Source: Desulfogranum japonicum DSM 18378 (GTDB taxonomy: Bacteria > Desulfobacterota > Desulfobulbia > Desulfobulbales > Desulfobulbaceae). From it: a stretch of DNA of 60,198 nt. The stretch lies in assembly GCF_000429945.1 (NCBI RefSeq), contig NZ_AUCV01000040.1:1-60198 (forward strand), read 5' to 3'. Under the pieces are notes generated by a model, which made no database searches, was not told the origin of the DNA, and saw only the letters and a list, made by a program, of their open reading frames with translations. Position numbers and translations under genes: made by a program. This document shows positions 5,555 through 57,400 of this stretch, one piece after another (the stretch's first letter is position 1; every line of letters starts with the position of its first letter).

Positions 5555-6166
5555 TCAATCACCAGCCTTATAGGCGGCTAAAAACACCTGCACAGCACTC
5601 CTGCTGGCCTGCCTGACCTTCTCTGCAGAAAAATCCGGAGCGACACCGATGGGGCCTCCCCAGTTGACTTCAGCCTCGTACAGGGCTAAAAGTTGCTGGG
5701 CAGCAGTCCAACAATACTCCACCTGCAAATATCCTGCTTCTGTGGCTGCGGCAAGGTAGTTGTTAATCATTGACACAGCCTGCTTGTTTCCCAACTCCCA
5801 GAATTGCCTGGCATCAGCTTCATCATTCATGGTTGCGGCAATCAAGCGTTTAAAGGCACACGCTTCAGGGGAAGCTATCATGCTGATGTAATATTCGCCC
5901 AGCTTTGTCAGTACATTCTCAGGGTCATCCCGGGTTTTATTCTCCAATTCCATGAATGCAGGTACCACATCACTACATAATCGATTAATGATAACCTCCA
6001 CAAGCAACTCGGCTTTTGAAGGAAAATAACCGTACAGTGTTGGTTTGGAACAACCAGCCTGAGTGGAGATTTCACTCATCGACGCCCGTTCATATCCCAT
6101 CTCTAAAAATATCTGTTCCGCAGTTTCCAATATAGATTTACGCCGCTCTTCGGTGCGTACTCGCAA
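5555..6166 (-). CDS. TetR/AcrR-family transcriptional regulator
   Basis: A 203-residue protein with the TetR N-terminal helix-turn-helix (residues about 8-55): RKSILETAEQIFLEMGYERASMSEISTQAGCSKPTLYGYFPSKAELL. The C-terminal 140 residues are the ligand/dimer domain, close to the AefR-like type with AAEAGYLQVE. The start is a TTG at 6166 preceded at eight bases by AGGAGG. It is convergent with the beta-barrel gene and no obvious target lies next to it. Confidence 0.9.
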   Translation of the reverse strand: MRVRTEERRKSILETAEQIFLEMGYERASMSEISTQAGCSKPTLYGYFPSKAELLVEVIINRLCSDVVPAFMELENKTRDDPENVLTKLGEYYISMIASPEACAFKRLIAATMNDEADARQFWELGNKQAVSMINNYLAAATEAGYLQVEYCWTAAQQLLALYEAEVNWGGPIGVAPDFSAEKVRQASRSAVQVFLAAYKAGD

Positions 6167-6368: not shown

Positions 6369-6603
6369 CTTGTGTTAACAAATTGCGACATAAATTTTCA
6401 AAGAAAAAATACAACCAATCACAGGCTGTATCATCATCCGGCTTCAAAATCTCTGACATGAGGGCTTTTGTTCGAATGCAGGTAAACGAGGAACGAGTGA
6501 ATACCGGCTAACCAAATACTGACCGTGTTATAGCACGTACCTAACAGCCTGCAGATAAGGTAACGCAGATTGATTCTGATATTCTTTTACAAGAGTGTGC
6601 CCA

Positions 6604-9009
6604 ATGCATGCACACAATCCAGCTGCGTTACCCCTTATGACAAAACATTTATCCTTGTTCGACTCCACACCCTCCACTACAAATCAGCATAAGGCTGCGG
6701 AAGCTCTGCGCCTCCATCTGAAAAGACAACAGACATGTCCTCCATTCACTGCAGGTGATGTTACTGCTGGTATGGAAAACGAATTGCAGGTTGCAGTGAG
6801 CGGTACAAGAAATCATGTGGATCTGCCGATTTCCCTCGAGGCGTCGAACTATTACAACAATCTACTGCTCAGGGCGCAAAGGGGTGAATTACCGGAGCAC
6901 AACCTGCGGGAAATCAAGGATTTTTTAGATGATCACGAGATACAGGTGTGGGAAAATTCCTGGGTACGATTTCCCAAGGTATTGCTTGGAATCTATACCA
7001 GGTCCATTCTCCAACACGATTTTTCAGCTGATAAAAACCACCCTGAAGCAGGCTCCAGGGGAGATCTCCAACGTTTTCTCTTCTTGCACCAGGGAGAAGA
7101 GTGGCTGCGAATTCCTGTCAGTTATCTGTTAAAACTTTCCCTTGGCGAAGCTGTCAGTCAGCCGAATCATGATTATCCTTTTTTTCATGCCATCGGCCAA
7201 CGGCTCATGCGTCATTTTATAAGCGACAACATTTCGCCTGAGATCACCTCCTTCACCCTGAGCCGAGGCACAAAAGATACACTACCGGGAAGCGCCCTTG
7301 CCCAGGAAGGCAGCAGAAGATTTTTCTTCATCCAGTTGCTTCTCCAATATGCTGAAAAACGATTCCAGCTTGATCGTTTCGGGCAACAGGTTCATCTGTA
7401 TTTTGCCCCCAATCCACCAGAGCGGCAGAAACAACTCAATGCCATCATTCCTGATGGTGTGTACCGTGAACTGTTTCTCAATCCCTGCCTGTCAGGTTGG
7501 CCCAGGGGAGAAGAAAAACGTGCCTACATGGCCCTCTGTCACCGGACACTTTCCCGAAGTCAACTCAACACCATTGCCAAACTGAAAGAGGCAGGTATAC
7601 TCTGCAACAACCTTATTATCCTTCCCAATACTTCTTCAACAGCCCTGGCCAACAATGGCAGCCATATTACCCTGGCAAGCAAAAGCCTGACTGCCAGCTA
7701 TGCCCGGGCAGCTGAATTCCCTCCACAGTGCAGTGAAAAATATTTTGGGGACCTGATCATCAAGCTGGTGGAACACTTTCTGCCTCTTTTTGTCGGCACC
7801 TATTCTGCTGCGCCACGTCGCATAGGTTTTGCAGATTTTCATCCTGAAAAAGTACTGGGATTCTTACCCCATGAGCTGGAATCTTCCCATCTGCGCATGA
7901 TCTGGCGACGGTGGAAGAAAAAGGCTTCCCTCCAGTTCTTTGGTCATAATTTTACTCCCATGGGCCCTCTCTGGCTGGATACCCTGCTGGCACGCTGCTG
8001 CAGACTGCAAGGCGATTACCTCCCAGATGTCAGGCTGCTCGATTATCTGGTAGCGCTACAGAGTCAGGAAACAGCGCCAGGCCTGAACGGGGTTATGCAT
8101 AATCAGGAACTGCTGAAACAGAACCTGGCAGAACTTGGTATTTTTGACCCGCGTATGGCCATGTACCTGCCTTTCCGCATGCGGGATCTCAACGCGTACG
8201 GATTTCATGGATTTGAAGGCAGGCATTATTCATTGTTTCCCGATATGCATACTTTCCTGGCCAGAGCTGCCAACATGCAGGCCATAGTTACAGCCATTGC
8301 CACCAACCTGGTTCTAGAGGGAAAGGTTACCCACCAGGATATACCGGACGACCCTTTCACAGAAAGCGAACGGCGTCAGATTTTTTTCATAAGCGCCATT
8401 GGCGTGCCAACCCTGTATGTACGGGCAAACACTGGCAACAAGGTACTTCAAAACATCCTTATCCACGCAGGATCGCGCACCAGGTCGAGCAGAAGATACA
8501 AGGGATATATCCGCGTTCCACTGGATGCCTACCGACGAGCCAGCCTGGCATACCTGCGCCAAAATGGGTCATGGTTTCTTAACCATCAAAAAATTCGTGA
8601 AGAATTTTCTTACCTTGAGTCCATTTTCAACGGAAGCGAGCCATCTGCAGCGCAACGCCTGACTGTCTCGATTACCGGCTGCCACAATTTACGTTCGGCA
8701 CCAATGAAAGAAGAAGCAGCCCTCTTTAACCGATGCGCCGAACAGTACTATAGAGGCGCCTTGTGCAGCCATCACATGCAGGAAGGACTGGAAACGTTTG
8801 TTGAAAATGCCAGGCAACTGGAAAATACCGGGAGAAGTGACCTGGTTAAACTCAAAGAAATCATCATTGGCCAGAGCCGAGCAGACCGTTTCATTGCCGC
8901 AACAGGTAAACACGTATTGCGCGGCACTGCTTCGGAAAAACAGCTTCATCAGCTCCTGCTTCTGTTTCTGCTCATCATTGAGCAGGATCTGGAACAAGGA
9001 GAAGCATAG
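6604..9009 (+). CDS. Large unrecognised protein in a PSD-like/Lgt-like cluster
   Basis: About 801 residues, no signal peptide and no long hydrophobic segment until the C-terminal LLLLFLLIIEQ, so probably cytoplasmic or membrane-associated. I cannot assign a family. Features that look conserved are LSLFDSTPSTTNQHKAAEAL near the start, GMENELQVAVSG (about residue 57), VWENSWVRFPK, a basic aromatic middle (RMIWRRWKKKASLQFFGHNFTPMGPLWLDTL) and MAMYLPFRMRDLNAYGFHGFEGRHYSLFPD. The frame also permits GTG at 6595 and ATG at 6637; 6604 was chosen for the upstream AAGAG. It is 14 bases upstream of a phosphatidylserine-decarboxylase-like gene, so the two almost certainly form one transcript and act in the same pathway. 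A role in lipid head-group metabolism is inference from that neighbour only. Confidence 0.8.
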   Translation: MHAHNPAALPLMTKHLSLFDSTPSTTNQHKAAEALRLHLKRQQTCPPFTAGDVTAGMENELQVAVSGTRNHVDLPISLEASNYYNNLLLRAQRGELPEHNLREIKDFLDDHEIQVWENSWVRFPKVLLGIYTRSILQHDFSADKNHPEAGSRGDLQRFLFLHQGEEWLRIPVSYLLKLSLGEAVSQPNHDYPFFHAIGQRLMRHFISDNISPEITSFTLSRGTKDTLPGSALAQEGSRRFFFIQLLLQYAEKRFQLDRFGQQVHLYFAPNPPERQKQLNAIIPDGVYRELFLNPCLSGWPRGEEKRAYMALCHRTLSRSQLNTIAKLKEAGILCNNLIILPNTSSTALANNGSHITLASKSLTASYARAAEFPPQCSEKYFGDLIIKLVEHFLPLFVGTYSAAPRRIGFADFHPEKVLGFLPHELESSHLRMIWRRWKKKASLQFFGHNFTPMGPLWLDTLLARCCRLQGDYLPDVRLLDYLVALQSQETAPGLNGVMHNQELLKQNLAELGIFDPRMAMYLPFRMRDLNAYGFHGFEGRHYSLFPDMHTFLARAANMQAIVTAIATNLVLEGKVTHQDIPDDPFTESERRQIFFISAIGVPTLYVRANTGNKVLQNILIHAGSRTRSSRRYKGYIRVPLDAYRRASLAYLRQNGSWFLNHQKIREEFSYLESIFNGSEPSAAQRLTVSITGCHNLRSAPMKEEAALFNRCAEQYYRGALCSHHMQEGLETFVENARQLENTGRSDLVKLKEIIIGQSRADRFIAATGKHVLRGTASEKQLHQLLLLFLLIIEQDLEQGEA

Positions 9010-9023
9010 AACCAGAGGATATC

Positions 9024-10019
9024 GTGCAAGCCCATCAATATATAATCCGTGAAACCGGGGAAATCGTAACCGAAAATCTCATAGGAGACCGCTCCATTCA
9101 ACTCCTGTACAGCAACATCCGCGAACATGCGCCTGCAATGTTCAGGGCATTGACTTCAAAACAGATGTCCGGATTTCTCGGCATGATGCATTTTGACCTG
9201 CAGAGAACGTTTGCTCAAAACAGAAAACATCAGCTCCTTCACAAGATGCATATTAACCTGGAGGAATGCGTTGCAACAGCGGATGAATTGAATACGCCAC
9301 GCAAAATATTTGAAAGACAAATCCGCTACTGGGACGTACGCCCAATGGATACTGCCCCTGAAGCCGTTGTATCTTCCGCTGATGCCAAAGTGTTGCTGGG
9401 CTCTCTCACGGAGACGCCTGACCTGTTTATCAAGGAAAAATTTTTCAGTGTGGATGAACTACTGGGGTCTCCTTCCTGGTATCAGTACTTTAAAGATGCT
9501 GATTTTGCCGTCTTTCGACTGACGCCAGACAAGTACCACTACAACCACGTACCGGTGCGGGGCAAAGTCCTGGATCACTATACCCTTTCGGGAGGTTACC
9601 ACTCCTGTAATCCGCAGGCCATTATCAGCGTTGCCTCCCTGTACACCAAAAACCGACGTACCGTGACCATCCTGGATACAGACATCCCCGGAGGGGCGAA
9701 CATCGGCAAGGTAGCCATGATTGAGTTAGTTGCCTTGATGATCGGAGACCTGGTGCAATGTTACAGCGAATATAGGTACGACAATCCACAGCCGGTTGCC
9801 AAGGGGATGATTCTAGAAAAAGGTGCACCGAAAAGCTTATACCGTCCAGGCAGCTCAACGGATATCCTCCTTTTCGAATCAGGCAGGATACAATTCAGTG
9901 AAGATCTCCTAGCAAACAGCAGACGCACTGATGTGGCAAGCCGGTTTTCTTCCGGGTTCAAGCAGCCCCTGGTGGAAACGGATATCAAGGTACGTTCGAC
10001 CATAGCGGCAGCCCTATAA
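9024..10019 (+). CDS. Phosphatidylserine decarboxylase-like pyruvoyl enzyme
   Basis: A 331-residue protein of the PSD fold. The conserved histidine block DKYHYNHVPVRGKV (about 169-182) matches the DYHRFH-P-G region, SGGYHSCNP (about 189-197) matches the substrate loop, and GSST at 276-279 is the site where PSD proenzymes self-cleave to make the pyruvoyl cofactor. Classical PSD makes phosphatidylethanolamine from phosphatidylserine. The long N-terminal extension (about 100 residues before the core) is like that of PSD-related proteins acting on other amino-carboxylates, so the real substrate is open. The GTG start has AGAGGA in front. It follows the 801-residue protein by 14 bases. Confidence 0.8.
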   Translation: MQAHQYIIRETGEIVTENLIGDRSIQLLYSNIREHAPAMFRALTSKQMSGFLGMMHFDLQRTFAQNRKHQLLHKMHINLEECVATADELNTPRKIFERQIRYWDVRPMDTAPEAVVSSADAKVLLGSLTETPDLFIKEKFFSVDELLGSPSWYQYFKDADFAVFRLTPDKYHYNHVPVRGKVLDHYTLSGGYHSCNPQAIISVASLYTKNRRTVTILDTDIPGGANIGKVAMIELVALMIGDLVQCYSEYRYDNPQPVAKGMILEKGAPKSLYRPGSSTDILLFESGRIQFSEDLLANSRRTDVASRFSSGFKQPLVETDIKVRSTIAAAL

Positions 10020-10148
10020 TACCCGGGATTCTAACGGTTTCTCCGACACACGACCTAATAATCTGAAATTATATACAATACCCTCACATGCAGTACAATA
10101 TGTACGTGAGAATTCCAGGCTAACCCCGATCATAATAACGGTCTCATC

Positions 10149-11195
10149 ATGAACATGCTTTTTCTCAGTTCCATTTTTTTGCTCTTTGCGCTTTTTATAT
10201 ATCTGGGATGTGCTTATCTCCCTGGAGAACGCTGGCAGATGCTGGCCATTATTCCCTATAAAAAAAGAGAAGATGCATCCTGGGAAGGTATTAACCTTAC
10301 CTACTACGGCTTCCTGGTAGCCACAGCCTCCATTTTTGCCTTGCTGCTCTCACTGATCCTGCTCAAAGCTGCCGGCGCTTTCCTTCCCGGTGTACTTGCT
10401 GTGGTGGGGTTACTGTTTGCCCTGTGTATACCCGCAGCCCGATTTATGGCCCGCATTGTTGAAAAAAAGCAATACACCTTTACCATAGGCGGGGCATTTT
10501 TCTGCGGCCTGCTTGCAACTCCGGTCATAGTTATGCTGGTAAATCAGGTCCTGGTAAAAACAGGTCATCCGGCCCTGCACATGTCAGTACTCCTGGCTGC
10601 CGTCAGCATCGGTTATATTCTGGGTGAAGGCCTGGGCCGGCTCGGTTGCGTCAGTTTCGGGTGCTGCTATGGTAAACCGTTAAAAACCTGTGCGCCTCTG
10701 ACTAGAAAAGTATATTCCCATCTATCTTTTATCTTTACCGGTACAACCAAAAAAGCTGTGTATGAAGGCGGCCTTGAAGGGGAAAAACTGATCCCTGTGC
10801 AAGCCATTACATGCATCCTGTATACAATAACCGCCCTTATATCCACAGGGTGTTTTTTACATCAGCAATACAGCCTGGCCTTTGTACTGGCTCTTTTTGT
10901 ATCCCAGATCTGGCGTATCTACTCTGAGACACTCCGGGCAGACTTTCGTGGCTTCGGTAAAATATCAGCGTATCAGAAGATGAGCCTGGCATCCATTCCC
11001 ATCGCCGTCTGCCTGACATTGCTTCCAGATGCACAAACCAGTGCCCCTGACATAGGCCAGGGAATCGCCATCCTCAAAGAACCTGTCCCCATGATTTTTC
11101 TCCAGGTGCTATGGGTCATACTCTTTTTTCGCTTCGGCAAAAGCATGGTAACAAGGTCGACCCTACAGTTCGATATCGTACACAAGCACATTTAA
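10149..11195 (+). CDS. Lgt-like (prolipoprotein diacylglyceryl transferase-related) membrane protein
   Basis: A 348-residue polytopic membrane protein with about eight hydrophobic segments. Residues 163-175, GRLGCVSFGCCYG, resemble the Lgt signature GRIGNFxNGCCxG that surrounds the catalytic arginine, and IPVQAIT is similar to the Lgt HPVQLY motif. True Lgt transfers diacylglycerol from phosphatidylglycerol to lipoproteins. The substitutions in the signature and the cytoplasmic loop after it (LKTCAPLTRKVYSH) suggest a paralogue with another acceptor rather than the housekeeping enzyme. It lies 129 bases after the PSD-like gene in the same direction; a separate promoter in that gap cannot be excluded. 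Confidence 0.6.
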   Translation: MNMLFLSSIFLLFALFIYLGCAYLPGERWQMLAIIPYKKREDASWEGINLTYYGFLVATASIFALLLSLILLKAAGAFLPGVLAVVGLLFALCIPAARFMARIVEKKQYTFTIGGAFFCGLLATPVIVMLVNQVLVKTGHPALHMSVLLAAVSIGYILGEGLGRLGCVSFGCCYGKPLKTCAPLTRKVYSHLSFIFTGTTKKAVYEGGLEGEKLIPVQAITCILYTITALISTGCFLHQQYSLAFVLALFVSQIWRIYSETLRADFRGFGKISAYQKMSLASIPIAVCLTLLPDAQTSAPDIGQGIAILKEPVPMIFLQVLWVILFFRFGKSMVTRSTLQFDIVHKHI

Positions 11196-11865: not shown

Positions 11866-12681
11866 ATGTCTCAGCTCTATTTTCGATCAATCTGGATATC
11901 TGATATCCATCTGGGCACAAGAAATCTGCAGAGCAGGCAGTTACTCAATTTTCTACAGCGTACCGAGTCTGAATATCTGTATCTGGTGGGAGATATTGTC
12001 GACCTTTTACAGGCCCAGAAAAAATGGCATTGGCCTCAAATCAATGACCGCATTATTCAGGCTGTATTCGAAAAAGCCGCTGGTGGGACAAAAGTCTATT
12101 ACATACCAGGAAATCATGACCATGTACTCCGTAAATTTAGCGGTAACGTGATCAATCATATTCATATTGAAAACGAAGTTGTCCACGAAACAGCTAACGG
12201 CCAGCGTTATCTCATACTCCATGGCGACAAGTTTGATCCGGTTATCCAGAACAGTCCCTGGCTGGCAAACATTGGAGCCACTGCATACAACATGCTCCTG
12301 GTTGTCAACCGCTGGCTCAACCTGGGGCGTCGTGCAGTGGGAAAAGATTACAAATCTATCTCAGCCTGGCTGAAGCACCAGGTCAAGATTGTGGTCAATT
12401 ACATGGGCAAGTATGAAGAGGTCGTAGCCCTGGAAATTGCCAAACATGAAGTAGATGGATTGATCTGCGGACACATTCACAAAGCGGGTATTCGGGAAAT
12501 TGGCAGTGCCCTGTACAACAACTCCGGTGATTGGGTAGAGAGCTGTACAGCCTTGGCCGAAAATATGGAAGGTCGCCTGGGAATCATTGAATGGCAAAAT
12601 GAGAATCCTCTCGAAGAGTATATCTTTACGGAAGAATATGAAACTGTGTATCGCAACAGATGCCTGGCATCCTCAAATTAA
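11866..12681 (+). CDS. PlcP-type metallophosphoesterase (LpxH-related)
   Basis: A 271-residue metallophosphoesterase with all five metal-binding motifs: SDIHLG, GDIVD, GNHDH, LHGDKFD and GHIHKAG. The family includes LpxH2-like UDP-diacylglucosamine hydrolases and PlcP, the phospholipase C that removes phosphate head groups during phosphate-starvation lipid remodelling. The next gene overlaps it by 44 bases and encodes an Agt-like glycosyltransferase. PlcP with Agt is the known arrangement for converting phospholipids to diacylglycerol and then glycolipid, which favours PlcP over LpxH here. A clear aaggag Shine-Dalgarno precedes the ATG. I did not find a convincing pair of Pho-box repeats upstream. 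Confidence 0.8.
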   Translation: MSQLYFRSIWISDIHLGTRNLQSRQLLNFLQRTESEYLYLVGDIVDLLQAQKKWHWPQINDRIIQAVFEKAAGGTKVYYIPGNHDHVLRKFSGNVINHIHIENEVVHETANGQRYLILHGDKFDPVIQNSPWLANIGATAYNMLLVVNRWLNLGRRAVGKDYKSISAWLKHQVKIVVNYMGKYEEVVALEIAKHEVDGLICGHIHKAGIREIGSALYNNSGDWVESCTALAENMEGRLGIIEWQNENPLEEYIFTEEYETVYRNRCLASSN

Positions 12682-13630
12682 TGGAGTGGTAACGACCCTG
12701 ACGCAGACCGTGGAAACCCTTCGTGCCTGGGGACACAGTGTGCAGACATTGACACCGGACAAATTTGCAACGGTCCCCTGTCCCACCTATCCGGAGATCC
12801 GCCTGAGTCTGGTCCTGAAACGGACCATATATGCCTCCTTGAAACAGTTCCAGCCCAATGCAGTGCATATAGCGACAGAAGGTCCCATTGGCTGGACAAC
12901 CAGGGCGGCCTGCCGCAAGGCTGGAATCCCGTTCACCACATCATACCACACCAGGTTCCCGGAATATGTCCGTCTGCGGCTCCCGGTTCCGCTTCGTCTC
13001 TCGTATTCCCTGATCAAACGTTTCCATGGAGCAGCCCGACAAACCATGGTTGCGCCCACTTTGATTGACGAATTGCACGACAAATCATTCAGGAACCTGG
13101 TTCCCTGGTCACGTGGGGTAAATATACAACTGTTCAGACCCAGGGAAAAAAAAATACTCTCAGGAGATGGACCGATTTTTTTGTATGTGGGAAGGGTCGC
13201 TGTGGAAAAAAATCTGCCCGCATTTCTTGACCTGGATTTACCGGGAACCAAATATGTCATTGGAGATGGTCCTGCACTGGCAGAGTATCGCAAGAAATAC
13301 CCTGCAGTATGTTTTACAGGCGCTAAAAAAGGCGAGGATCTGGCCAGGCATGTTGCCGCAGCCAATGTCTTTGTCTTCCCAAGTCTGACTGACACGTTTG
13401 GTGTTGTACTGCTGGAAGCCATGGCTTCAGGCGTTCCGGTGGCGGCATTTCCGGTAACCGGCCCCAAATACCTGGTAAAGAACGGCATCAACGGATGGCT
13501 CAGCAACGACCTGCAGGAAGCAGCCACCAAAGCCCTGGAAGTTGATGCAACGACCTGTAGAAAAAGTGCGGAAGATTTTTCCTGGGATGCCTGCACCACG
13601 CAATTCTATAATAACCTCATCATACAATAA
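12638..13630 (+). CDS. GT4-family glycosyltransferase, Agt-like
   Basis: A 330-residue GT-B glycosyltransferase of family 4. The N-terminal acceptor domain begins MKLCIATDAWHPQINGVVTTL, and the donor domain holds YVGRVAVEKNLPAFL and the E-x7-E signature FGVVLLEAMASGVPVAAF. The start was set at the ATG at 12638 because the typical N-terminus begins there and GGAAGAA precedes it; it overlaps the end of the phosphoesterase gene. In plcP-agt systems this enzyme glycosylates diacylglycerol to form a phosphorus-free glycolipid. A lipid or mannosyl acceptor is inferred from context, not visible in the sequence. Confidence 0.85.
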   Translation: MKLCIATDAWHPQINGVVTTLTQTVETLRAWGHSVQTLTPDKFATVPCPTYPEIRLSLVLKRTIYASLKQFQPNAVHIATEGPIGWTTRAACRKAGIPFTTSYHTRFPEYVRLRLPVPLRLSYSLIKRFHGAARQTMVAPTLIDELHDKSFRNLVPWSRGVNIQLFRPREKKILSGDGPIFLYVGRVAVEKNLPAFLDLDLPGTKYVIGDGPALAEYRKKYPAVCFTGAKKGEDLARHVAAANVFVFPSLTDTFGVVLLEAMASGVPVAAFPVTGPKYLVKNGINGWLSNDLQEAATKALEVDATTCRKSAEDFSWDACTTQFYNNLIIQ

Positions 13631-21283: not shown

Positions 21284-24200
21284 TTATTTTTTAAACTCAA
21301 TCACCGATCGACCATTTTTCTCAAAGTTAATACCAGGATCACACAGCAGCAACTTGTCTCCATCAATGGAAAAGTTGTTCACGAGATATTCTTTCACATG
21401 TGATGCCCTGGTGTCACCGAGTTCCCGTAACTGCTTTCGAATGATTTCATCCTGCATTGCAGCATATATCTTATCACTTTTCACAGTTCCGTCACCTAAC
21501 TCCGTCAAGGCGACTCTGGGACAGATACTGTACTCATTATCACCCTGCTTTTCCAGCTTCTTGCCAATTTTGTCTAAAATCTCTTTGTGTGCATCTGTCA
21601 ACTCTAATTGTTGTGCTTCAAAAGAAAGAGCAGGCAAGTCCGTGTTCAGTAGAGAACTTCCGAACTCTACGCCCATATAGACCAAAGCCCCTGTCGGTCC
21701 AAGTACCGTATACGCAAGATACGGCACAACCGCCACAGTAATGGCCTTGCCCACCGCCGTAACCAGGATATCTGTAATGCCGACATTCAAATCTGAAAGG
21801 TTGCCGGAAAGAGGAATATCCAGCTCAATGTTATTGTCGCCATCACGTAACAATGTCAAAGCTAAATCCAATGGCACAGGGAGCTGATTGTTCAGTTCCG
21901 CAGCCAATTCATCATCCACAGTTCGTGTTTGCAACTCCTTGAGCAGGACGGTGTTATCCAGTCGGATACGATCTCCCTTCAATTTCAAGACAGACTTCAA
22001 ATCAGCCCTGCCGGTATCAAAATAGGTACCTATGGCCTGCACAACATAAGGGGAGACACTGGGAAGCGGATAGTTACGCAAGGTCAGCGTCTGCTCAACC
22101 GACATTGGCACCGCCATGGGCCGGGAAATTCCGTTGACCTTTAATGACGCATGTTTATCAAAAGTTCCTTTTAAAACATACTCCACGGTCTGTTCCGGCG
22201 TATTCAAATCAAGCCCTTTCACCTCTGCCATATCTAGTTGAAACAGAGTTTTAAAAGGTATTTTCATAGTTGAATCGGTAAAACTGAAACCCGACTCTCC
22301 GTCAACCGTTATCAGATCTATTTTTACAGGTATGCCTGTGCCCGAAGGTTGCTTATCTTCCTCAGAAACTGTTGGAGTCGTTGGTTTTTCCTCTTCGGCC
22401 TGCTGAACACCTGCCTGCGCATCGCCCCCATCTTCAGGCAAACGAAGAACCCGGGCATACAGGCTATGAACATTGATCTTCTCACACTCAACGCCCTTCT
22501 CCCCTGACCAATGCACCGGGCTGGTTGTAATATTTCCCAGGGTAGCAAGGGGATCTGCGGCCTCTTTAAGATCCTGCAGGAACTGCCCATCTTCCACCTG
22601 AATGGACTGCGCAGTCATAGCTTTCTGTTCATCCAGGTCCAATTCTTTGACTTCGAGTTTTCCTACTGCAGCGAGCAAGGTGTCACCGGCACCGTCATGC
22701 ACCTGAATGTTTCCTGCCTGTATCGCTTCCACCTGCAGCGTCTTCAAATCATCACTGGTGATTTTTCCACTGGCAATGGAATCAATAGATACCCCCACAG
22801 GAACGGCCTGTGAAACGGGAATATCCACCCCTCGAACATGAAGGCCACCGGCTTCCACCCCTTTGGATTCTGTTCCAGCTATCTCTTTTACACCAATTTC
22901 TGCGACCTTGACCACCGGTTCCATGGCCATTTCCAGGAGCAAATTTTCTCCCTGCACAGTTGTTTTCCCCACAAGCAGAGGTTGCGCAGCCAGAGTCACC
23001 TCAAGGTCATTATCCATCTTCAGGCTCTGCTGGGATACGTGTATCTGGGAAGCTGGTAAATCCAGATTGAATTTCTCGCCTCCCAAGGTTCCTTTCAACT
23101 GCAGGGTACTGTTGCCATTTTTCAGGTGATAGCCGGTGTGTCCCTGCAGACTGAAGCTGGCAAGGTCCGTCTGCATCGAGTCCATGTCCAGACCCGTCTC
23201 CTGCAGGCCAAGAAGCCCGTCAAAAGTAACATGGAGTTCCTGGCCAAGTTCAACCATGGTTTTCCCCTCAAGGAGGCCTTCTTGCTGAGAAAAATTCATG
23301 GTTTCCGGGAGATTGACCGCAATGTGTGAAGCAGTCAGCTTTCCATCGGTTGCAATCAACGTATTGGCTGCGGTTCCGCCGGCATACGAAACAGCACCGT
23401 CATACACCAGCGTCGCTGCTGTCTCCCAGCCCATATTGCCGACTTTCCCATCAGCAATCAGGATATGCCCCTGATACTCGCTCTTCATACCGGCATCTTC
23501 AGCCATGCTATAAGAAAACTGACCGTCAATGGTCACCTCGCCATCAAATGGATTCAAAAACGGCTGAAGAAGATTATCCAGATTATCCAGGACAAAACGA
23601 TCGAGCCGTATTGATCCTTCCAGGGCCAAAGCAGGAACTATTTTACATTTTTGCAGATCGATTTCCACCGGGGAGTCATTCAGGGTACCCTTGAGATACA
23701 GGGTGCCCCCGTCAGTGGTATCGGCAGTGGTAAAATTTCGTATTCTACCTTCTTCAATGAATAATCGTACATCAAGATTCGGCTGTTTATAATGAAGGGT
23801 CACATTGGAGATATCCACCTCTTCGGCTGCAACAATCCAGCTGTTGCCATTCTCCAGAGATTGTTCGGCCTCAAGTGTTTCCTCATTCCGGTCAGGCGTA
23901 TCTGCTGTCGCAGGAATATTTACCGAAGCTATGCGAAGGTTGCCGTCTTCGCCCTGCTCAATATCCAGGACCAGGTCAGCCAGTCGTGCCTTCTGTACAG
24001 TTGCGCTGCGCTTAAAGAGCATCCCAAGACCAATATCGACATGAACAGTGGAATCAGCAAAAACAACAGTTCCTCCCCGCTGTACATCAGCATCGTGAAG
24101 AGTCAATGACCCGATGAAGGGATTAAAACCAATCCTGCCTATCTCAGCCTTGTCCGCCCCATTTTCTAGTAACCATTTCTGCACATACAGCTTGACGCCA

Positions 24201-24319
24201 TAGGGTGCCAAAAAAATAAGAGCTGCAAAAAAAAGTACTACCAGAAAACCGGCTCTGAAAATTTTGCGCCCGAAACTTCGGCGAGGGATTGATGTATCAG
24301 AAGGTTTGGGAGAGGACAT
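21284..24319 (-). CDS. DUF748 (AsmA-like) envelope protein
   Basis: A 1011-residue protein with one N-terminal membrane anchor (about residues 18-38, FLVVLFFAALIFLAPYGV) followed by a very long periplasmic beta-rich domain typical of DUF748/AsmA-like proteins. Repeated strand-turn units such as LHDADVQRGG and LTLRNYPLPSVSPYVVQAIG are visible; the latter, with YFDTGRADLKSVLKL, matches the family core. A Pro/Glu-rich linker (EEEKPTTPTVSEEDKQP) splits it near residue 640. The C-terminal 120 residues (TDAHKEILDKIGKKL to EFKK) resemble an OmpA-type peptidoglycan-binding segment. Related proteins help phospholipid transport to the outer membrane. Single gene. Confidence 0.85.
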   Translation of the reverse strand: MSSPKPSDTSIPRRSFGRKIFRAGFLVVLFFAALIFLAPYGVKLYVQKWLLENGADKAEIGRIGFNPFIGSLTLHDADVQRGGTVVFADSTVHVDIGLGMLFKRSATVQKARLADLVLDIEQGEDGNLRIASVNIPATADTPDRNEETLEAEQSLENGNSWIVAAEEVDISNVTLHYKQPNLDVRLFIEEGRIRNFTTADTTDGGTLYLKGTLNDSPVEIDLQKCKIVPALALEGSIRLDRFVLDNLDNLLQPFLNPFDGEVTIDGQFSYSMAEDAGMKSEYQGHILIADGKVGNMGWETAATLVYDGAVSYAGGTAANTLIATDGKLTASHIAVNLPETMNFSQQEGLLEGKTMVELGQELHVTFDGLLGLQETGLDMDSMQTDLASFSLQGHTGYHLKNGNSTLQLKGTLGGEKFNLDLPASQIHVSQQSLKMDNDLEVTLAAQPLLVGKTTVQGENLLLEMAMEPVVKVAEIGVKEIAGTESKGVEAGGLHVRGVDIPVSQAVPVGVSIDSIASGKITSDDLKTLQVEAIQAGNIQVHDGAGDTLLAAVGKLEVKELDLDEQKAMTAQSIQVEDGQFLQDLKEAADPLATLGNITTSPVHWSGEKGVECEKINVHSLYARVLRLPEDGGDAQAGVQQAEEEKPTTPTVSEEDKQPSGTGIPVKIDLITVDGESGFSFTDSTMKIPFKTLFQLDMAEVKGLDLNTPEQTVEYVLKGTFDKHASLKVNGISRPMAVPMSVEQTLTLRNYPLPSVSPYVVQAIGTYFDTGRADLKSVLKLKGDRIRLDNTVLLKELQTRTVDDELAAELNNQLPVPLDLALTLLRDGDNNIELDIPLSGNLSDLNVGITDILVTAVGKAITVAVVPYLAYTVLGPTGALVYMGVEFGSSLLNTDLPALSFEAQQLELTDAHKEILDKIGKKLEKQGDNEYSICPRVALTELGDGTVKSDKIYAAMQDEIIRKQLRELGDTRASHVKEYLVNNFSIDGDKLLLCDPGINFEKNGRSVIEFKK

Positions 24320-30358: not shown

Positions 30359-33300
30359 ATGCGAAACTATTTTTTATCAACATATTTTACTCTTCTGTTT
30401 TCCGGAGTACTACTTTTCTTTGCGGGAGGTTCCCCTGCTGCATATGGTGCAGTTGGTAAATATACTCCAGATACAGAGATCCTGGCAGAATTCGATGCAC
30501 TCCAGCTATACATAGGAAACCTTTCCAACGCAGAGTTGAAAAAAGGTCTTAAAAACAGTCTAAGCAAGCAACTCAACGCAGCTGAAGCAGCATACCAGAG
30601 GGGAAAAGGTTGCACAGCTGTAAATATTCTTGGGGCGTACCTGAATCACTCGGCCGCCATCATGAAAGGCCAAAAAGGGAAATATGCTGCCGTTGCCGAG
30701 GACCTTCGCAACCGAGGGACGATTCTCCAAAACAATGTACTGCTCAACATTTCAGAAAGTATGCAGTGTCGTGGATTTGAGGACTTCAATCAGGAACCTG
30801 CCATTCACATAGCCGCTTCTGACAATACCCGGTTTGATGCTGCAGTCTCATTCGGTCTGCCGTTTTTAACGAGTGAAACCGGGGATGGAGAAACCTGGAC
30901 GAAAATGCATATCCCAGGGTTGCAATCCGAGGCTGGAGAGGTCGGATTGCCTGCAGTTCCTGCATGGAATACCCTTGTTGCCGTACCGCAGGGGGCATCG
31001 GTTCATGTAAAGACACTTCCTCCTGTCATCCGCAATGAAATCCTGGTAAATCTCTACCCTTTTCAGGATGAGGTTGCCGATCATGTTGATCTGAAATATT
31101 TTAAGCCCCCTTTTGCAAAAGACCAGAAAGTCTATCAGACAAATGCCTTTTTCCCTGCAGAGCCATGCACAATAGCTCTTATCGGTAACATACGAGGACT
31201 CAATATTGCCCAACTGACATGTACCAGCGCGCAATATAATCCAGTAAGCAAAGTTCTTCGGTTATATGATGAAGTTGATTTTGAGGTTACCTTTGATGGA
31301 GGCGATGGGGCTTTTATTACAAGCCGAAATCTGAGTCCATTTGAACCAACAAGTGAAAGCAGCAAAGAAAGCGTTATCAACAAGGCTGTCATACAAAAAT
31401 ATGTTCTTCCCGTGGACATTTCACACCTGACTGTTTACGGAGAAGAACTGCTGATTCTGACCCATCCGGATTTTCGTGATGCTGCAGATGATCTTGCCCA
31501 ATGGAAAGAAGACAAAGGCATTATTACTTCGGTATTTGAAGTCGGACAAGGCACACCTTATGATACCGGTGCAAAGATTGATGATCTCATTGAATACCGT
31601 TACGAAAATTGTGCTGTACGCCCTTCTTACGTGCTACTCCTTGGGGATTCTGAATTCGTTCCACCGGCACGGACAGACTATGACTCAGATCCTACCTGCA
31701 GCACATGCGGAGATTCTACAACCGGCTCTGATTACGGATATGCGATGTATCCCGAGTTTTTTTTCGATATTCTTCCAGACTTTGGAGTTGGCAGAATTCC
31801 GGTGGACACGCTGGCCGAAGCCCAGACCGTTGTCGATAAAATTATCAACTATGAATCAGATCCGCCTTTCATAGACTGGTTCGATGGAGCCCCCTATTAC
31901 ACGACGGCTGCCAATGCCGCCGAGTTTCAAGGATACCTGATGAATGCGGACGGAAGTCCTTTCGGAGGCCTTGATGGTCGGGCTCAACGTTCTTTCACAG
32001 AGGTTTCTGAATTTGTGCGGGCTCATATGATGCTGTGGGGCCATACTGTAGAACGTATATATGACGCCACAGAAGACACAGGTGGGTACTGTCTTGATGA
32101 AGAAGACCCATGTACCATCCAGCAACCTTATACAGGTATTGCCACTCCAAACCGTTATCGCAATGGTACCCTGCTGCCAACTGATATTCGAGCGTCAAGC
32201 GGATATGCCTGGGACGGAGATACTGATGCTGTCGTTGATGCCTTTAACGAGGGGCGCTTTCTTATCCTGCATCGTGACCATGGCGCATCCAATGGATGGG
32301 GAACTCCAAGTTTCAGGACATGGGATTTCGGGGATCTGAGTAACGACGAGTTGCTGCCCGTTGTATACAGTGTGAACTGTTCCAGCGGTTTCTGGGACAG
32401 AGAAACAGACCATGGATCATCTTCTGAATCCTTTATGGAACTTCTCCTCATGGAGGAAGATGGCGGAATGGTCAGCGGCCTTGGCGATAACCGCAATAGC
32501 CCGACATGGGCCAACAGTGCTCTGACAAGAGGTTTCTATGATGCGACCTGGCCAACGGTTGCACCTGAATTTGGCGACAATGAGAGAATTTACCGTCTAG
32601 GTGATATTCTTAACCATGGAAAAGTATATCTTCTTTCCCAGGTTGGAGTCGCGCAAACAGCCGGAAGCATAAGCCTGGAGAAGACACTGGGCGAATTTGT
32701 CATGTGGCATGTTTACGGTGATCCTACCTTGGAGATGTGGACCAAAAATCCATACAAAATGATTCTGGGTCTCGATCATTGGGCATATCTCGGCTACGAA
32801 CACCTTGAGGTCGGCTATGCAGTCAACGGTGCTGTTATAACAGCCTACCAGATTACCAAGGAAGGAACGGTACCCATTGGCCGTGCAGTTGTTGAAGAAG
32901 AGGTTGCGGAAATCCCATTTTTCCGTGCCCCTGTAGAAGGCATTCCCATCATGCTTTCCGCCAGCTACAAAAATGCTGTCAGCGTCCTGCTGACCCCTCC
33001 CGAAGCTTCCCCGGATCTCAGAATTAACCAGCTGATAAATACACCGGCCGGGGTCGCCACCATGTTTCATCCAGGTGAAGATATTTCCAGCCGCCTGGCA
33101 ATCGAAGTGGAAAACCTTGGACAAGGGAACGCTCCAGGTACAATCATGGTCAATCCGGATGGAAGTATATCAACACAAGATGGGTATATGATTGACCTGA
33201 TGTTATCCACTGACGAGATTGTGCCAATGGGATGGGCCTCACCACCGTCCACCATATTTTCAGAAGATGCTCTTCTGCAGGGCGGACGTGTCAGTCGAAC

Positions 33301-33526
33301 TCCTGATGTGGCAGGCGGCAGCACCCTGTTACTGTCTACTGCCCCGCCGGTTATGAGTGATATCGGCGGCATAATCCCATCACAAATACAAACAGGCAGC
33401 TATTTCTTATGTGGACGTATTGATCCGGGAGAAATGGTGGAAGAAACAGATGAAAGCAACAACGTCACTTGCATGGAGGTACAAGTACAGCCCATGATTA
33501 TGAAAGGGATTGCACAAAAACAGTAG
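30359..33526 (+). CDS. Secreted C25-family (gingipain-like) cysteine peptidase
   Basis: A 1055-residue secreted protein. The signal peptide ends near AAYGA. A long N-terminal region (to about 360) includes the C25 pro-domain. The peptidase domain (about 365-810) has SYVLLLGDSEFVPP, the catalytic His in HRDHGASNGW (His641) and the catalytic Cys in VVYSVNCSSGFWD (Cys674), then DGGMVSGLGDNRNSP. A C-terminal CARDB-like domain (about 880-1045) ends with VEETDESNNVTC. No obvious type IX secretion tag is present. GAGGAGGGG lies before the ATG. Expression is predicted to depend on the upstream c-di-GMP riboswitch, linking the protease to surface or biofilm behaviour. Arg/Lys specificity cannot be read from sequence. 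Confidence 0.9.
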   Translation: MRNYFLSTYFTLLFSGVLLFFAGGSPAAYGAVGKYTPDTEILAEFDALQLYIGNLSNAELKKGLKNSLSKQLNAAEAAYQRGKGCTAVNILGAYLNHSAAIMKGQKGKYAAVAEDLRNRGTILQNNVLLNISESMQCRGFEDFNQEPAIHIAASDNTRFDAAVSFGLPFLTSETGDGETWTKMHIPGLQSEAGEVGLPAVPAWNTLVAVPQGASVHVKTLPPVIRNEILVNLYPFQDEVADHVDLKYFKPPFAKDQKVYQTNAFFPAEPCTIALIGNIRGLNIAQLTCTSAQYNPVSKVLRLYDEVDFEVTFDGGDGAFITSRNLSPFEPTSESSKESVINKAVIQKYVLPVDISHLTVYGEELLILTHPDFRDAADDLAQWKEDKGIITSVFEVGQGTPYDTGAKIDDLIEYRYENCAVRPSYVLLLGDSEFVPPARTDYDSDPTCSTCGDSTTGSDYGYAMYPEFFFDILPDFGVGRIPVDTLAEAQTVVDKIINYESDPPFIDWFDGAPYYTTAANAAEFQGYLMNADGSPFGGLDGRAQRSFTEVSEFVRAHMMLWGHTVERIYDATEDTGGYCLDEEDPCTIQQPYTGIATPNRYRNGTLLPTDIRASSGYAWDGDTDAVVDAFNEGRFLILHRDHGASNGWGTPSFRTWDFGDLSNDELLPVVYSVNCSSGFWDRETDHGSSSESFMELLLMEEDGGMVSGLGDNRNSPTWANSALTRGFYDATWPTVAPEFGDNERIYRLGDILNHGKVYLLSQVGVAQTAGSISLEKTLGEFVMWHVYGDPTLEMWTKNPYKMILGLDHWAYLGYEHLEVGYAVNGAVITAYQITKEGTVPIGRAVVEEEVAEIPFFRAPVEGIPIMLSASYKNAVSVLLTPPEASPDLRINQLINTPAGVATMFHPGEDISSRLAIEVENLGQGNAPGTIMVNPDGSISTQDGYMIDLMLSTDEIVPMGWASPPSTIFSEDALLQGGRVSRTPDVAGGSTLLLSTAPPVMSDIGGIIPSQIQTGSYFLCGRIDPGEMVEETDESNNVTCMEVQVQPMIMKGIAQKQ

Positions 33527-46506: not shown

Positions 46507-48291
46507 ATGCGTATCCTTCTACTTGAAGACTCCGGCCCCATCCTGCACCTCATTCGTGCCCGTCTGCTCAATGCAGGATTTGAAGTCGAAACTGCAACCA
46601 ATGGTCACCAGGGCTTTCAAATGGCCACCTCCAATGCATATGATGCCATTGTCAGTGATCTGCAGATGCCCCACTGGGATGGCTTTAAATTCATCGATGC
46701 CATTCAGGTCATCTGCCCGCAATTACCCATAATCCTGGTTACCGCGACCCATGAAGACGAAGCAACCTTTTCCCGTTTGAAAAGCTACCCCAATGTACAG
46801 GCCATACTTCGCAAACCTGTTGATTTTAATTTATTGTTCAACCATTTACAGACAATAAGCCCGCAAACTCATACCAGCGTGAATAAAATGGCGCGGATCG
46901 TGTGCACCATAGGCCCAAGTTGTGATACCACTGCGCCTCTGGGCAAAATGATACTTGCTGGCATGGATGTGGCTCGTTTGAATTTCTCCCATGGCAGCCA
47001 TGAACAACACCATAAAGCTCTCTGTGCTATCAGGCAGGCAGAAAAAATATGGGATAAGCCCATCGCCGTTCTACAGGATCTCAGCGGACCGAAAATTCGG
47101 ACAGGTGACATGCGGAATGGGGCGATCATTCTGACAAAGGGTGAACAGGTGATTATCCAGGCAGAACCTCTTATAGGCAATGGGGAGAGGATCTCCACCG
47201 TTGTTCCATCCATCCTCAAAGATTTGCGTAAAGGAGACCCTGTTCTACTGGATGACGGTCTTCTTGAATTGCGTGTCCTGAAATCGGGGGCAGAAGAAGT
47301 CGTGTGCGAAATTTTGGTAGGCGGTGTGCTCAAATCAAACAAAGGCATCAATCTGCCTTCCACACATCTCAGCCTGACAAGTATTACTGAAAAAGACTGG
47401 CAGGATCTGGATTGGGCACTGGAACACTCCATTGATTATGTAGCCCTTTCTTTTGTGCGCAGTGCCAGTGATATCCACAAAGTGCAGGATTATATCCGGG
47501 ATGCAGGGAAGAAGCCTTTAAAGGTCGTTGCTAAGATAGAAAAACCGGAAGCTGTGCAAAATATCCACGAAATCATCCAGGCCAGCGATGCGATAATGAT
47601 TGCCAGAGGCGATATGGGAGTGGAACTGCCGGCTGCGAAAGTACCCCGCATTCAGGAACGAATCATCCGTCTGTGCAGAGAACAAAATACCCCGGTGATC
47701 ATTGCCACCCAGATGCTGGATTCCATGACCACCAACTCCAGGCCCTCCCGTGCTGAAGTTACTGACGTCAGCATGGCTATCAAGCAAGGTACGGATGCCG
47801 TCATGCTCAGCCAGGAAACTGCAACAGGCATAGACCCGGTCAATGTGGTACGGACCATGTCGTCCATCATCTGCGAAGAAGAACGGTATACGGAAACCTC
47901 GACCATACAGCTTAACGAACTGCAGCAGGACAGCTCTGTCAATCCGGCACTGTCTGCCATTGCCGGTCTTATGAATATCTCTGTGGCCCTTTTACTTGAT
48001 CCTGATGGAATTCTTTACCCTTCCCTCTCTAAATGGAACAGACGGGTTCCCACACTACTGGTTACCAAATCTCTGCGCATCGCACGCCTTTCATGTCTCT
48101 ACAACAATATTTTCCCGCTCATCATACGAGAAGAGCTGGACCGTGTGGACATGGTACATGCCTCTCTAAGCAAAGCCAAGGAATGGGGCTATATCAGGGT
48201 GGGCGATCAGGTTGCCTTTGTGGAAGGATTCCGGGTCACCAGAACGGGGTTTCATCAGATAGGTGCAGTGCAGGTGGTAACAGTACAATAA
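46507..48291 (+). CDS. Response-regulator receiver domain fused to pyruvate kinase
   Basis: A 594-residue protein. Residues 1-118 are a receiver domain: MRILLLEDSG (E7, D8), phosphoacceptor D51 in VSDLQMPHWDG, T79 in ILVTAT and K103 in LRKPVD. Residues 128-594 are a full pyruvate kinase: ARIVCTIGPSC, MDVARLNFSHGSHEQH, VVAKIEKPEAV with the catalytic Lys, MIARGDMGVELP, VIIATQMLDSM, AVMLSQETATG and the C-terminal regulatory domain. No stop or Shine-Dalgarno interrupts the joint; the ATG at 46888 lacks a ribosome site. Pyruvate kinase makes ATP and pyruvate from phosphoenolpyruvate. Control of its activity by phosphorylation of the receiver is an inference. No histidine kinase is adjacent. Confidence 0.93.
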   Translation: MRILLLEDSGPILHLIRARLLNAGFEVETATNGHQGFQMATSNAYDAIVSDLQMPHWDGFKFIDAIQVICPQLPIILVTATHEDEATFSRLKSYPNVQAILRKPVDFNLLFNHLQTISPQTHTSVNKMARIVCTIGPSCDTTAPLGKMILAGMDVARLNFSHGSHEQHHKALCAIRQAEKIWDKPIAVLQDLSGPKIRTGDMRNGAIILTKGEQVIIQAEPLIGNGERISTVVPSILKDLRKGDPVLLDDGLLELRVLKSGAEEVVCEILVGGVLKSNKGINLPSTHLSLTSITEKDWQDLDWALEHSIDYVALSFVRSASDIHKVQDYIRDAGKKPLKVVAKIEKPEAVQNIHEIIQASDAIMIARGDMGVELPAAKVPRIQERIIRLCREQNTPVIIATQMLDSMTTNSRPSRAEVTDVSMAIKQGTDAVMLSQETATGIDPVNVVRTMSSIICEEERYTETSTIQLNELQQDSSVNPALSAIAGLMNISVALLLDPDGILYPSLSKWNRRVPTLLVTKSLRIARLSCLYNNIFPLIIREELDRVDMVHASLSKAKEWGYIRVGDQVAFVEGFRVTRTGFHQIGAVQVVTVQ

Positions 48292-54340: not shown

Positions 54341-54408
54341 ACCGCTCAACACCGGCAGCTTTATGGCAGGATATGTACGCACCCATAACTTTCACAGGAG
54401 CACATGGC

Positions 54409-57400
54409 ATGGCTGGACAAGATTACGAACTGTACACCCAGGCGATAGAGCTTGCCGAAAGATGGCAGAACAAGGCAAATGAACTGCTCACCAAAGATGA
54501 AAAAAAACTCCAGAAGCAGCTCAAGCGTCTTCTGACTCACCCTCAGGATAAAGTCCTGTTCAGCAAGCTCATTGACCAGAGTTTTCGCTCCCATATACCC
54601 AGGCGGGTTGCTGACCAGATTACTGACCTGCTCTCTAAAGAGGGTGTTCCATCCTTTCTCTCCCCCGTGGAAAAGGCCTTTATCAGAATCTTCCAACAGG
54701 CTGGCAGACAGCTTGCCTCTGTTGCCGTTCCAACAATGATCAGCCAGATGCGCCAGGGATCAAGCCGGGCCATCATTCCGGGAGAATCAGATAAGCTCAA
54801 GGCCCATCTGGAAAAACGAAAACAGGAAAAAGTGCGAATGAACATCAATCACCTTGGAGAAGCTGTCCTGGGTGAGGATGAGGCGGAGAAACGGCTGGAA
54901 ACCTATGTGAAGGATATGCGCGATCCTGCCATCGAGTGCATTTCCATCAAGATATCTACCATCTACTCTCAGATCAGTTCCCTGGCAATGCCAGACACCA
55001 TACAGGAACTGAAGAAACGGTTAACCTCCATATACACCGAAGCACAACACAATTGTTTTACCCGTGCAGACGGCTCCCGGGTTCCCAAATTTGTCAACCT
55101 GGACATGGAAGAATACCGTGACCTGGAGATAACCTACCATGCCTTTGTGGAAACACTGGATCAACCGGAGCTGCTGCAATACTCGGGCGGTATTGTCCTT
55201 CAGGCCTACCTGCCGGACAGTTTTGCCATGCAGCAGAAATTAACACAATGGGCACGGGCACGCCTGACAAAGGGCGGAGCTCCGGTGCAATTGCGTATTG
55301 TCAAAGGCGCCAACATGGAAATGGAAAAACTGGAATCAGCCCTGTTCAACTGGCCGCTGGCACCCTATGACAACAAACTGGAGGTGGATGCCAACTACAA
55401 ACGCATGGTCACCTTCGGTATGAAAGAGGAAAATATCAAGGCTGTGCGCCTCGGTATTGCCTCACACAACCTCTTTGAGTTGGCCTACGCCTACACCCTG
55501 GCCAGAGCCAATGGGGTTACCGATTATTTTCACTTTGAAATGCTTGAAGGCATGGCTGACCATGTGCGCCGTGCCCTGCAGGAAATCTCAGGGGAGGTAC
55601 TGCTCTATGCGCCGGTGGCATCCAGGGATGAGTTTATTAATGCCATCGCCTACCTGATACGGCGATTGGATGAAAACACAGCTCCAGAAAATTTCCTCCG
55701 CTATTCACCGGACCTGCATGTGGGATCCAATGAGTGGGATTACCTGAAACAGCAGTTCCTTGACTCCTGTCTATACCAGGCCCGGGCACAAGATCATCCC
55801 AACAGAATACAGGATAGAGAGAACGAAACATTCATACCAGAAGAGGTCTCCGCGTATCACACAGGCCGCTTTGTCAATGAACCTGATACTGACTGGTCCC
55901 TGCCTGCCAACAGGAACTGGGCTGAAAATATACGCGCCACATGGTGTAAACAGCAGAAAGATGAGCCTTTCAAGATTCCCCTTGTCATTGGCGGAAAGCA
56001 AATCTTCACAGACAGGGATACCAGAGATGTAATTGATCCAAACAGGGTCCAGGAAAAGATCTTGGTTGCCAGTCATGCCCAGGCCAATGCACAAGATGCC
56101 GAAACAGCCATACAGGTTGCGCGCCAGGACCCAGACGGTTGGCGGCAGATGAGCTATGGTGAACGCCACAGGATACTGGCCGGCGTGGCCATGGAGATTC
56201 GCCATGCCCGTGGTGACCTCATTGGTGCGGCAGCCGCTGACACAGGCAAAGTTTTCAGCGAAGCGGATGTGGAAGTCTCAGAGGCCATTGACTTTGCGGA
56301 ATATTATCCATTCACAGCTTCAAAATTTGCTGATCTGGAGCACATGGAAGCAAAGGGAAAAGGTGTGGGCCTGGTAATTTCTCCCTGGAATTTTCCCATA
56401 GCTATTCCCTGTGGCGGCATTGTCACTGCTCTTGCAGCCGGAAATACGGTAATCTTTAAACCTGCTTCCGATGCTGTCATGACTGCCTGGATGCTCTGTC
56501 AGTGCTTCTGGAGGGCCGGTGTGTCAAAAAATGTACTTCAATTTATTCCCTGTTCCGGAGCCAAGGTAGGTCCTCTGTTGACCGGTTCCCCGGATATTGA
56601 TTGTATCATTCTGACAGGAGGAACAGATACAGGGCTGCAGATTCTCAAGCAGACACCCGGTGTTTATCTGGCTGCAGAGACAGGTGGAAAAAATGCGACC
56701 ATTGTCACAGACATGGCTGATCGCGACCAGGCCATCAAGAACGTCATCCATTCTGCATTCAGCAACTGTGGCCAGAAATGCAGCGCCACCAGCCTGCTCA
56801 TTCTTGAAAAAACCATTTATGACGATCCCCATTTCAGGCAGCAGCTCGTTGACGCGAGCCGCAGCATGAAAGTTGGTTCAGCCTGGGATTTTGGCAGCAA
56901 ACTCGGTCCGCTAATCAAAGCCCCGGCCAATGATCTGAAACAGGCCCTGACAACATTGGAGCCTGGTGAAGAGTGGGCTCTTGAACCCCGAATGGTTGAT
57001 GACAATCCCGCCATATGGGCTCCGTGCATCAAATATGGAGTACAGCCGGGCAGCTACACCCATATGACCGAATTCTTCGGCCCTTTACTGGGTGTTATGC
57101 GAGCGGAAAACCTGGAACACGCCATCCAGCTGGTAAATCAGACCGGCTATGGCCTTACAAGCGGCATCGAAACGCTGGATGAACGCGAACAGGAAGTATG
57201 GAAAGAGCATATTTTTGCAGGCAACCTGTATATTAACCGGGGCACCACCGGGGCCATCGTCCTGCGTCAGCCCTTTGGCGGTATGGGCAAGTCGGCCCTG
57301 GGGCCGGGCATCAAGGCCGGCAGCCCGGACTACGTTGCGCAGTTCATGGACTTCACTGAAACCGGATACCCGGCCACCGGAGCCCTTAAAAAGGATTCCA

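Follow-up and report, generated by a model that had tools for sequence, protein, structure and literature searches.

Amino-acid-derived lipids are made by the betaine-lipid (BtaAB) and ornithine-lipid (OlsBA/OlsF) pathways, which use enzymes different from those encoded by the locus studied here, a three-gene cluster of Desulfogranum japonicum DSM 18378. The cluster (hereafter the trio) is located in a stretch of 60,198 nucleotides (contig NZ_AUCV01000040.1; hereafter the window) and encodes a large protein that we termed BIG, a protein similar to phosphatidylserine decarboxylase (PSD) and a membrane protein similar to the diacylglyceryl transferase Lgt. Enzymes of the glutamate–cysteine ligase/PafA superfamily, which BIG resembles in predicted fold, catalyse the ATP-driven joining of a carboxylate and an amine and are not lipid enzymes; PafA and Dop act on a protein. 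Lgt of Escherichia coli also acts on proteins: its transfer centre consists of R143 and R239 together with E243 and R246, H103 is essential, and phosphatidylglycerol at the first site is bound by E151, which was proposed to act there as a selection filter (available text of PMC4728403). In marine bacteria, PlcP–Agt pairs remodel lipids so as to save phosphorus, according to the available text of PMC4796936, and a Desulfovibrio under phosphate starvation makes glycolipids and ornithine lipids (PMC5193443, in the part available).

Like the betaine-lipid and ornithine-lipid pathways, the trio is proposed to yield an amino-acid-derived lipid, but none of its proteins matched the families of those pathways in Pfam or NCBIfam. 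The trio is inherited as one unit and is a strong candidate for an undescribed lipid pathway; a search of the open-licence literature, with subscription papers outside its scope, found no paper on it. The three genes are as follows.

6595–9009, + strand: BIG, 804 amino acids from a GTG start (801 if the ATG at 6604 is taken)
9024–10019, + strand: PSD-like pyruvoyl-dependent decarboxylase of a distinct subfamily, 331 amino acids (PF02666)
10149–11195, + strand: Lgt-like membrane protein, predicted diacylglyceryl transferase, 348 amino acids (PF01790)

The original prediction, made from the letters of the window, had described this cluster as a large protein of 801 amino acids and of no recognised family, 14 bases from a PSD-like gene and near an Lgt-like gene with a deviating signature. 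All three open reading frames are present on the + strand, and both the length, counted from the ATG at 6604, and the 14-base spacing between BIG and the PSD-like gene are correct.

The trio is inherited as a single unit

Conservation of the trio was followed in 296 genomes, each at least 90% complete, sampled evenly across the phylum of the window, with thresholds of E < 1e-100 for the PSD-like and E < 1e-70 for the Lgt-like subfamily. BIG was present in 36 of the 296 genomes and each of the two partner subfamilies in 37, and 259 genomes contained no trio member at these thresholds. In all 36 BIG-carrying genomes the PSD and LGT genes follow BIG, in that order, on one contig and one strand (coordinates compared by eye), and in the 37th genome (G194) the PSD and LGT genes lie at the end of a 12,777-base contig, where BIG would fall past the contig end. 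Weaker PSD matches were seen in 8 further genomes (best 2.1e-28) and weak Lgt-like matches in 34 (best 3.6e-7), the latter probably representing ordinary Lgt. Because all 36 carriers hold the three genes together, their co-occurrence is far beyond chance; the original prediction had named a lack of co-occurrence in other genomes as evidence against it, and the genes proved instead to be conserved as a unit. Among 96 genomes of relatives BIG occurred in 14 and was absent from several of the same genus or family.

A short-peptide-pattern scan of 84,980 species genomes yielded 99 stretches with BIG relatives, the best 80 of which were used (loci numbered with an L). Record titles of the BIG stretches were mostly those of Deltaproteobacteria, of Desulfo- or Geobacter-type taxa; a few were labelled Nitrospirae, Nitrospinae, Planctomycetota, Brocadia or Victivallales, some of these being possibly mis-binned. 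Open reading frames for the PSD-like and Lgt-like partners were present in 77 and 71 of the 80 loci, respectively, and the trio was complete in 71, with identical order and strand in every case. In all complete loci the PSD gene starts at most 216 bases from the BIG end, and the distance between PSD and LGT exceeds 500 bases in four (maximum 4315). Nine loci lack a partner, and eight of these end at most 753 bases from the contig end. In L108 the BIG open reading frame is shortened and the PSD-like gene is on a different contig; a search of the genome of L109 for a PSD-like match found none.

Pairwise distances among the three proteins were correlated across 65 loci, those of the 81 in which the copies are nearly full-length (0.875, 0.893 and 0.883, against permutation maxima of at most 0.285), a measure that alone does not distinguish joint transfer from shared descent. 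Together with the presence of the whole trio in 36 of 36 carriers, these correlations indicate that the operon has been passed on as a single unit. According to the records, species in culture that carry all three genes include Desulfogranum marinum, Desulfobacter vibrioformis, Desulfatibacillum alkenivorans, Dethiosulfatarculus sandiegensis and Desulfocarbo indianensis. The trio had no match in the plasmid collection, and a reading as a defence system was rejected for lack of a PADLOC match.

BIG is probably a carboxylate–amine ligase

BIG matched no entry among Pfam, NCBIfam and PDB sequences, in agreement with the earlier statement that it belongs to no recognised family, and no Pfam family was matched by more than one of its 58 aligned relatives. 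An AlphaFold2 (AF2) model built from the 58-sequence alignment reached a predicted local distance difference test (pLDDT) of 90.2 and a predicted template modelling score (pTM) of 0.92, and its top Foldseek matches were a bifunctional glutathione synthetase, glutamate–cysteine ligases and PafA. Structural re-alignment of the Foldseek candidates with VIA gave Z scores of 18.0 to 3ln7 (394 residues aligned, root-mean-square deviation 4.3), 17.6 to 1v4g, 15.9 to YbdK 1r8g (339 aligned of 358), 14.7 to PafA and 14.6 to Dop. The predicted fold is thus shared with the glutamate–cysteine ligase/YbdK (GCS2)/PafA–Dop group over the top 16 rows, which span Z 18.0–10.1 (the last being a yeast ligase); the next, unrelated chain scored 3.5. 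Rows with Z < 5 (PIEZO, G-protein-coupled receptors and similar) were treated as chance.

Residues G59, E61, E63, Q65, H357, E541 and R543 are invariant in 58 of 58 BIG relatives. They form three motifs, G59-x-E61-x-E63-x-Q65, H357 and E541-x-R543, whose succession would match that of the superfamily (G-x-E-x-E in the first strand, then a strand with His and one with E-x-R), the pairing to the ligase motifs being taken from a low-confidence profile alignment. Residues of this kind in the superfamily bind metal, ATP phosphates and acyl phosphate. The predicted fold and the invariant motifs in apparent superfamily order suggest that BIG probably represents a new family of ATP-dependent carboxylate–amine ligase with the glutamate–cysteine ligase/YbdK/PafA fold. 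It differs from known members in its size (804 amino acids, about twice YbdK, with motifs 1 and 2 set approximately 180 residues further apart by a very rough, low-confidence alignment), in having no significant sequence-profile match and in its gene company. The hidden Markov model and structure searches that the original prediction had proposed for this protein thus gave no match on the one hand and a carboxylate–amine ligase superfamily on the other, and its suggestion that the large protein might be a lipid synthase does not agree with a predicted fold belonging to non-lipid enzymes.

The partner proteins retain active-site residues

The PSD-like protein matched Pfam PS_Dcarbxylase (PF02666) with 113.4 bits (1.5e-32), and its family profile matched solved PSD chains at 1.5e-19 over a region that includes the catalytic Asp and His; L-tryptophan decarboxylase chains were among the profile matches. 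All 32 relatives share D120, H172, H175, S277 and S278. As in PSD, there is a G-S-S region; the putative autocleavage site, assigned from the sequence and from known motifs, lies outside the solved-chain alignment. In contrast to PSD proper, the protein falls far below the curated equivalog cut-offs (140.3 against 371 bits and 72.4 against 111.75) and is linked to a ligase; two other PF02666 matches in the host genome score 162 and 125 bits. By sequence, it is a distinct subfamily with retained catalytic residues.

Homology of the third protein to Lgt is supported by a match to Pfam LGT (PF01790; 38.8 bits, 8.2e-10), which 35 of 36 relatives share, by an hhalign probability of 98.1% over 229 columns between its family and Lgt, and by fold, with a VIA Z score of 13.4 to E. 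coli Lgt 5azb and 4.9 to the next chain (rows with Z < 5 were again treated as chance). Counterparts of Lgt residues were mapped from alignments and motif spacing. That of R143 is kept in 35 of 36 relatives and those of R239, E243, R246 and Y26 in all 36. By contrast, every one of the 36 has Cys where Lgt has N146 and E151, followed by a third invariant Cys, and V, I, C, T or A predominate in place of H103. The Lgt signature G-R-L-G-N-F-I-N-G-E accordingly reads G-R-L-x-C-x-S-F-G-C in the Lgt-like protein, as part of a motif of the type G-R-L-x-C-x-S-F-G-C-C-Y-G. The deviation noticed in the original prediction is real, and its cysteines are common to all aligned relatives. Because H103 and N146/E151 are missing, we do not class the protein as Lgt, and a stronger Lgt match (273.7 bits) lies elsewhere in the host genome. 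Retention of the transfer centre with Cys at N146/E151 and loss of H103 suggests a protein that probably continues to transfer diacylglyceryl but uses a different donor or acceptor.

Neighbouring genes and regulation

Three further genes flank the trio in the window.

11866–12681, + strand: metallophosphoesterase (LpxH/PlcP-like), possible accessory partner (PF00149)
12587–13630, + strand: GT4 glycosyltransferase, possible accessory partner (PF13692/PF00534)
5555–6166, − strand: divergent TetR/AefR-type candidate regulator (PF14246, PF00440)

The metallophosphoesterase and GT4 genes downstream of the trio have a candidate likeness to plcP–agt pairs, but the available text of PMC4796936 does not mention the trio, and no Pho box was found at the trio with a simple E. 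coli-type consensus. Identity of the metallophosphoesterase as LpxH was rejected, although it is the sole match to the LpxH model in the genome, because its 48.6 bits lie below the cut-off of 190.35. Its cluster is also found near the trio in L022 and L026 and 5′ of BIG in L109; related GT4 genes occur near the trio in L022, L023, L026, L028 and L056, with longer GT4 proteins elsewhere, and both window clusters are represented in L022 and L026. The regulator is not conserved with the trio, only L066 having a match (51.6 bits) among 80 loci.

Neighbours were counted in 42 loci, including the window, with more than 6 kb on both sides; closely related genomes were counted separately and the counts have no genome-wide background. 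A PHP-GT4 family or related GT4 (some weakly related) was present in 13, a Zn-dependent phospholipase C cluster in 10, radical SAM in 6, GT4 with metallophosphoesterase in 1 (the window) and any of these in 22. The long GT4 proteins (approximately 820–950 amino acids) have an N-terminus that may be PHP-phosphoesterase-like, as suggested by a sub-cut-off metallohydrolase match (L098) and a marginal PHP match (L028). The phospholipase C cluster, checked against Pfam for one member, is mostly found in Geobacter- and Desulfuromonas-labelled records. A PHP-like GT4 (approximately 820 amino acids) followed by a radical SAM protein (approximately 430 amino acids) recurs beside the trio (L098:12553-16314, L047:13141-16951, L049:6612-10455), and in L049 this pair lies between PSD and LGT.

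Short open reading frames (2370 from 174 flank and gap stretches) were compared all against all. No protein or peptide substrate was evident among the 12 largest families, and a small peptide substrate was rejected: these families were the BIG N-terminus, fragments of downstream phospholipase C genes or apparent shadow frames of neighbours.

Elsewhere in the window, the gene at 46507–48291 (+) joins a response-regulator receiver domain at the N-terminus (PF00072 at residues 3–114) to pyruvate kinase (PF00224 at 127–448), a fusion of a signalling receiver with an enzyme of glycolysis. A gingipain-type C25 peptidase of 1055 amino acids with a propeptide (30359–33526, +), a PutA-type bifunctional proline dehydrogenase/aldehyde dehydrogenase (54373–58011, +) and a DUF748 protein of 1011 amino acids (21284–24319, −) are also present.

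Proposed pathway and alternatives

Unit conservation, predicted folds and retained active-site residues were established by computation, and from these we infer the reactions, step order, substrates and product of a trio pathway. Our leading reading, to which we give about an even chance, is that the trio forms one biosynthetic unit that builds a head group bearing an amide and an amine and joins it to diacylglycerol. In the first step, BIG would use ATP to activate a carboxylate as acyl phosphate and couple it to an amine; by superfamily precedent the carboxylate might be a glutamate side chain or a similar acid. The PSD-like pyruvoyl enzyme would then strip the alpha-carboxyl from the amino-acid part, free or lipid-bound, leaving an amine, and the Lgt-like enzyme would transfer the diacylglyceryl unit of a phospholipid to the acceptor. 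Its donor or acceptor would probably be unlike that of Lgt, because the signature region, which in Lgt contributes to phosphatidylglycerol selection, here contains three invariant cysteines. This would yield a diacylglycerol lipid that is not attached to protein and may contain no phosphorus; in some lineages neighbouring glycosyltransferases and phospholipases may process it further. The pathway for an unusual lipid envisaged by the original prediction is therefore supported by unit conservation, by the lipid-enzyme families of the second and third genes and by the frequent phospholipase-C-type and glycosyltransferase neighbours, but not in the role of lipid synthase given to the large protein.

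Several observations weigh against this reading. The glutamate–cysteine ligase/PafA superfamily is not a lipid family; the original prediction had named such a match as contrary evidence, and it weakens the simplest version of the proposal, although a ligase is still compatible with a lipid-head-group pathway. Foldseek matches of the BIG model were weak by themselves (E 0.039 and above), and a sequence-profile proof of the superfamily was tried and failed, hhalign of BIG against six YbdK-type sequences giving a non-significant probability of 2.8%; for this reason the ligase assignment is limited to the predicted fold and short motifs. A clear exception to the linkage is Desulforhopalus singaporensis (L043), in which a full-length BIG (L043:7833-10253) stands alone, followed by unrelated genes, and a search of this genome for a PSD-like match found none; the lone gene, without PSD or LGT neighbours, adjoins xanthine-dehydrogenase-like genes, as read from translations. 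Partner genes vary by lineage, and 20 of the 42 loci have none, a count again without genome-wide background. Upstream of BIG, Pho boxes were not enriched by a simple E. coli-type consensus (mean best score 9.35 against 9.12 in shuffled sequence; 86 loci, some genomes twice), a result that lends no support to Pho regulation of the trio. Finally, Desulfatibacillum alkenivorans carries the trio (L076, DSM 16219, presumably strain PF2803T; carrier at species level). Its lipidome after growth on a C16 alkene comprises phosphatidylethanolamine (PE), phosphatidylglycerol (PG) and cardiolipins, and the word aminolipid is absent from the available text of PMC11150832, which speaks against a bulk, constitutive trio lipid; the product may be minor, conditional or beyond the lipids analysed.

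The same lipidome, as given in that text, would fit a remodelling or salvage of ordinary phospholipids, with PE or PG head groups modified by BIG and the Lgt-like protein and the PSD-like protein acting as an additional phosphatidylserine decarboxylase; so would the 140 bits against the PSD model and the phospholipase-C-type and GT4 genes nearby. We consider this unlikely: the 140.3 bits fall far short of the model cut-off of 371, the host genome contains two further PF02666 matches, and PE synthesis needs no strict linkage to a ligase. Modification of a protein or peptide by a PafA-like BIG and the Lgt-like enzyme, together with removal of a terminal carboxylate by the PSD-like enzyme, is suggested by PafA and Dop among the structural matches of BIG (Z 14.7 and 14.6) and by the action of Lgt itself on proteins (available text of PMC4728403). 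Such protein lipidation is nevertheless quite improbable in our view, as the Lgt-like protein has an altered signature and has lost the H103 that is essential in Lgt, PSD-family enzymes work on lipids or small amino acids (compare the tryptophan decarboxylase matches), and the 12 largest short-frame families beside the trio included no small-protein family, even if a substrate could be encoded elsewhere. The glutathione-type ligase fold of BIG and the existence of PSD homologues that use free amino acids (the L-tryptophan decarboxylase chains) would also suit a non-lipid small molecule, such as an amine or thiol cofactor or an osmolyte, with the Lgt-like protein as membrane transporter or sensor; the diacylglycerol-binding and -activating residues kept in 35–36 of 36 relatives are hard to explain without diacylglyceryl chemistry and make this distinctly unlikely.

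In its boldest form the proposed head-group pathway would define a new bacterial membrane-lipid class, possible though rather doubtful at present, in which diacylglycerol carries an amide-linked decarboxylated amino-acid head group, an ether or thioether replaces the phosphodiester, and a new ligase family with a repurposed PSD and Lgt makes the lipid across a wide range of anaerobic sediment bacteria. If the proposal is true, a fold best known for lipoprotein maturation (Lgt) would have been recruited, with a new amide-ligase family, into a small-molecule lipid pathway, and the trio would provide a defined gene marker for a lipid to be sought among the unassigned lipids of sulfate reducers and sediments.

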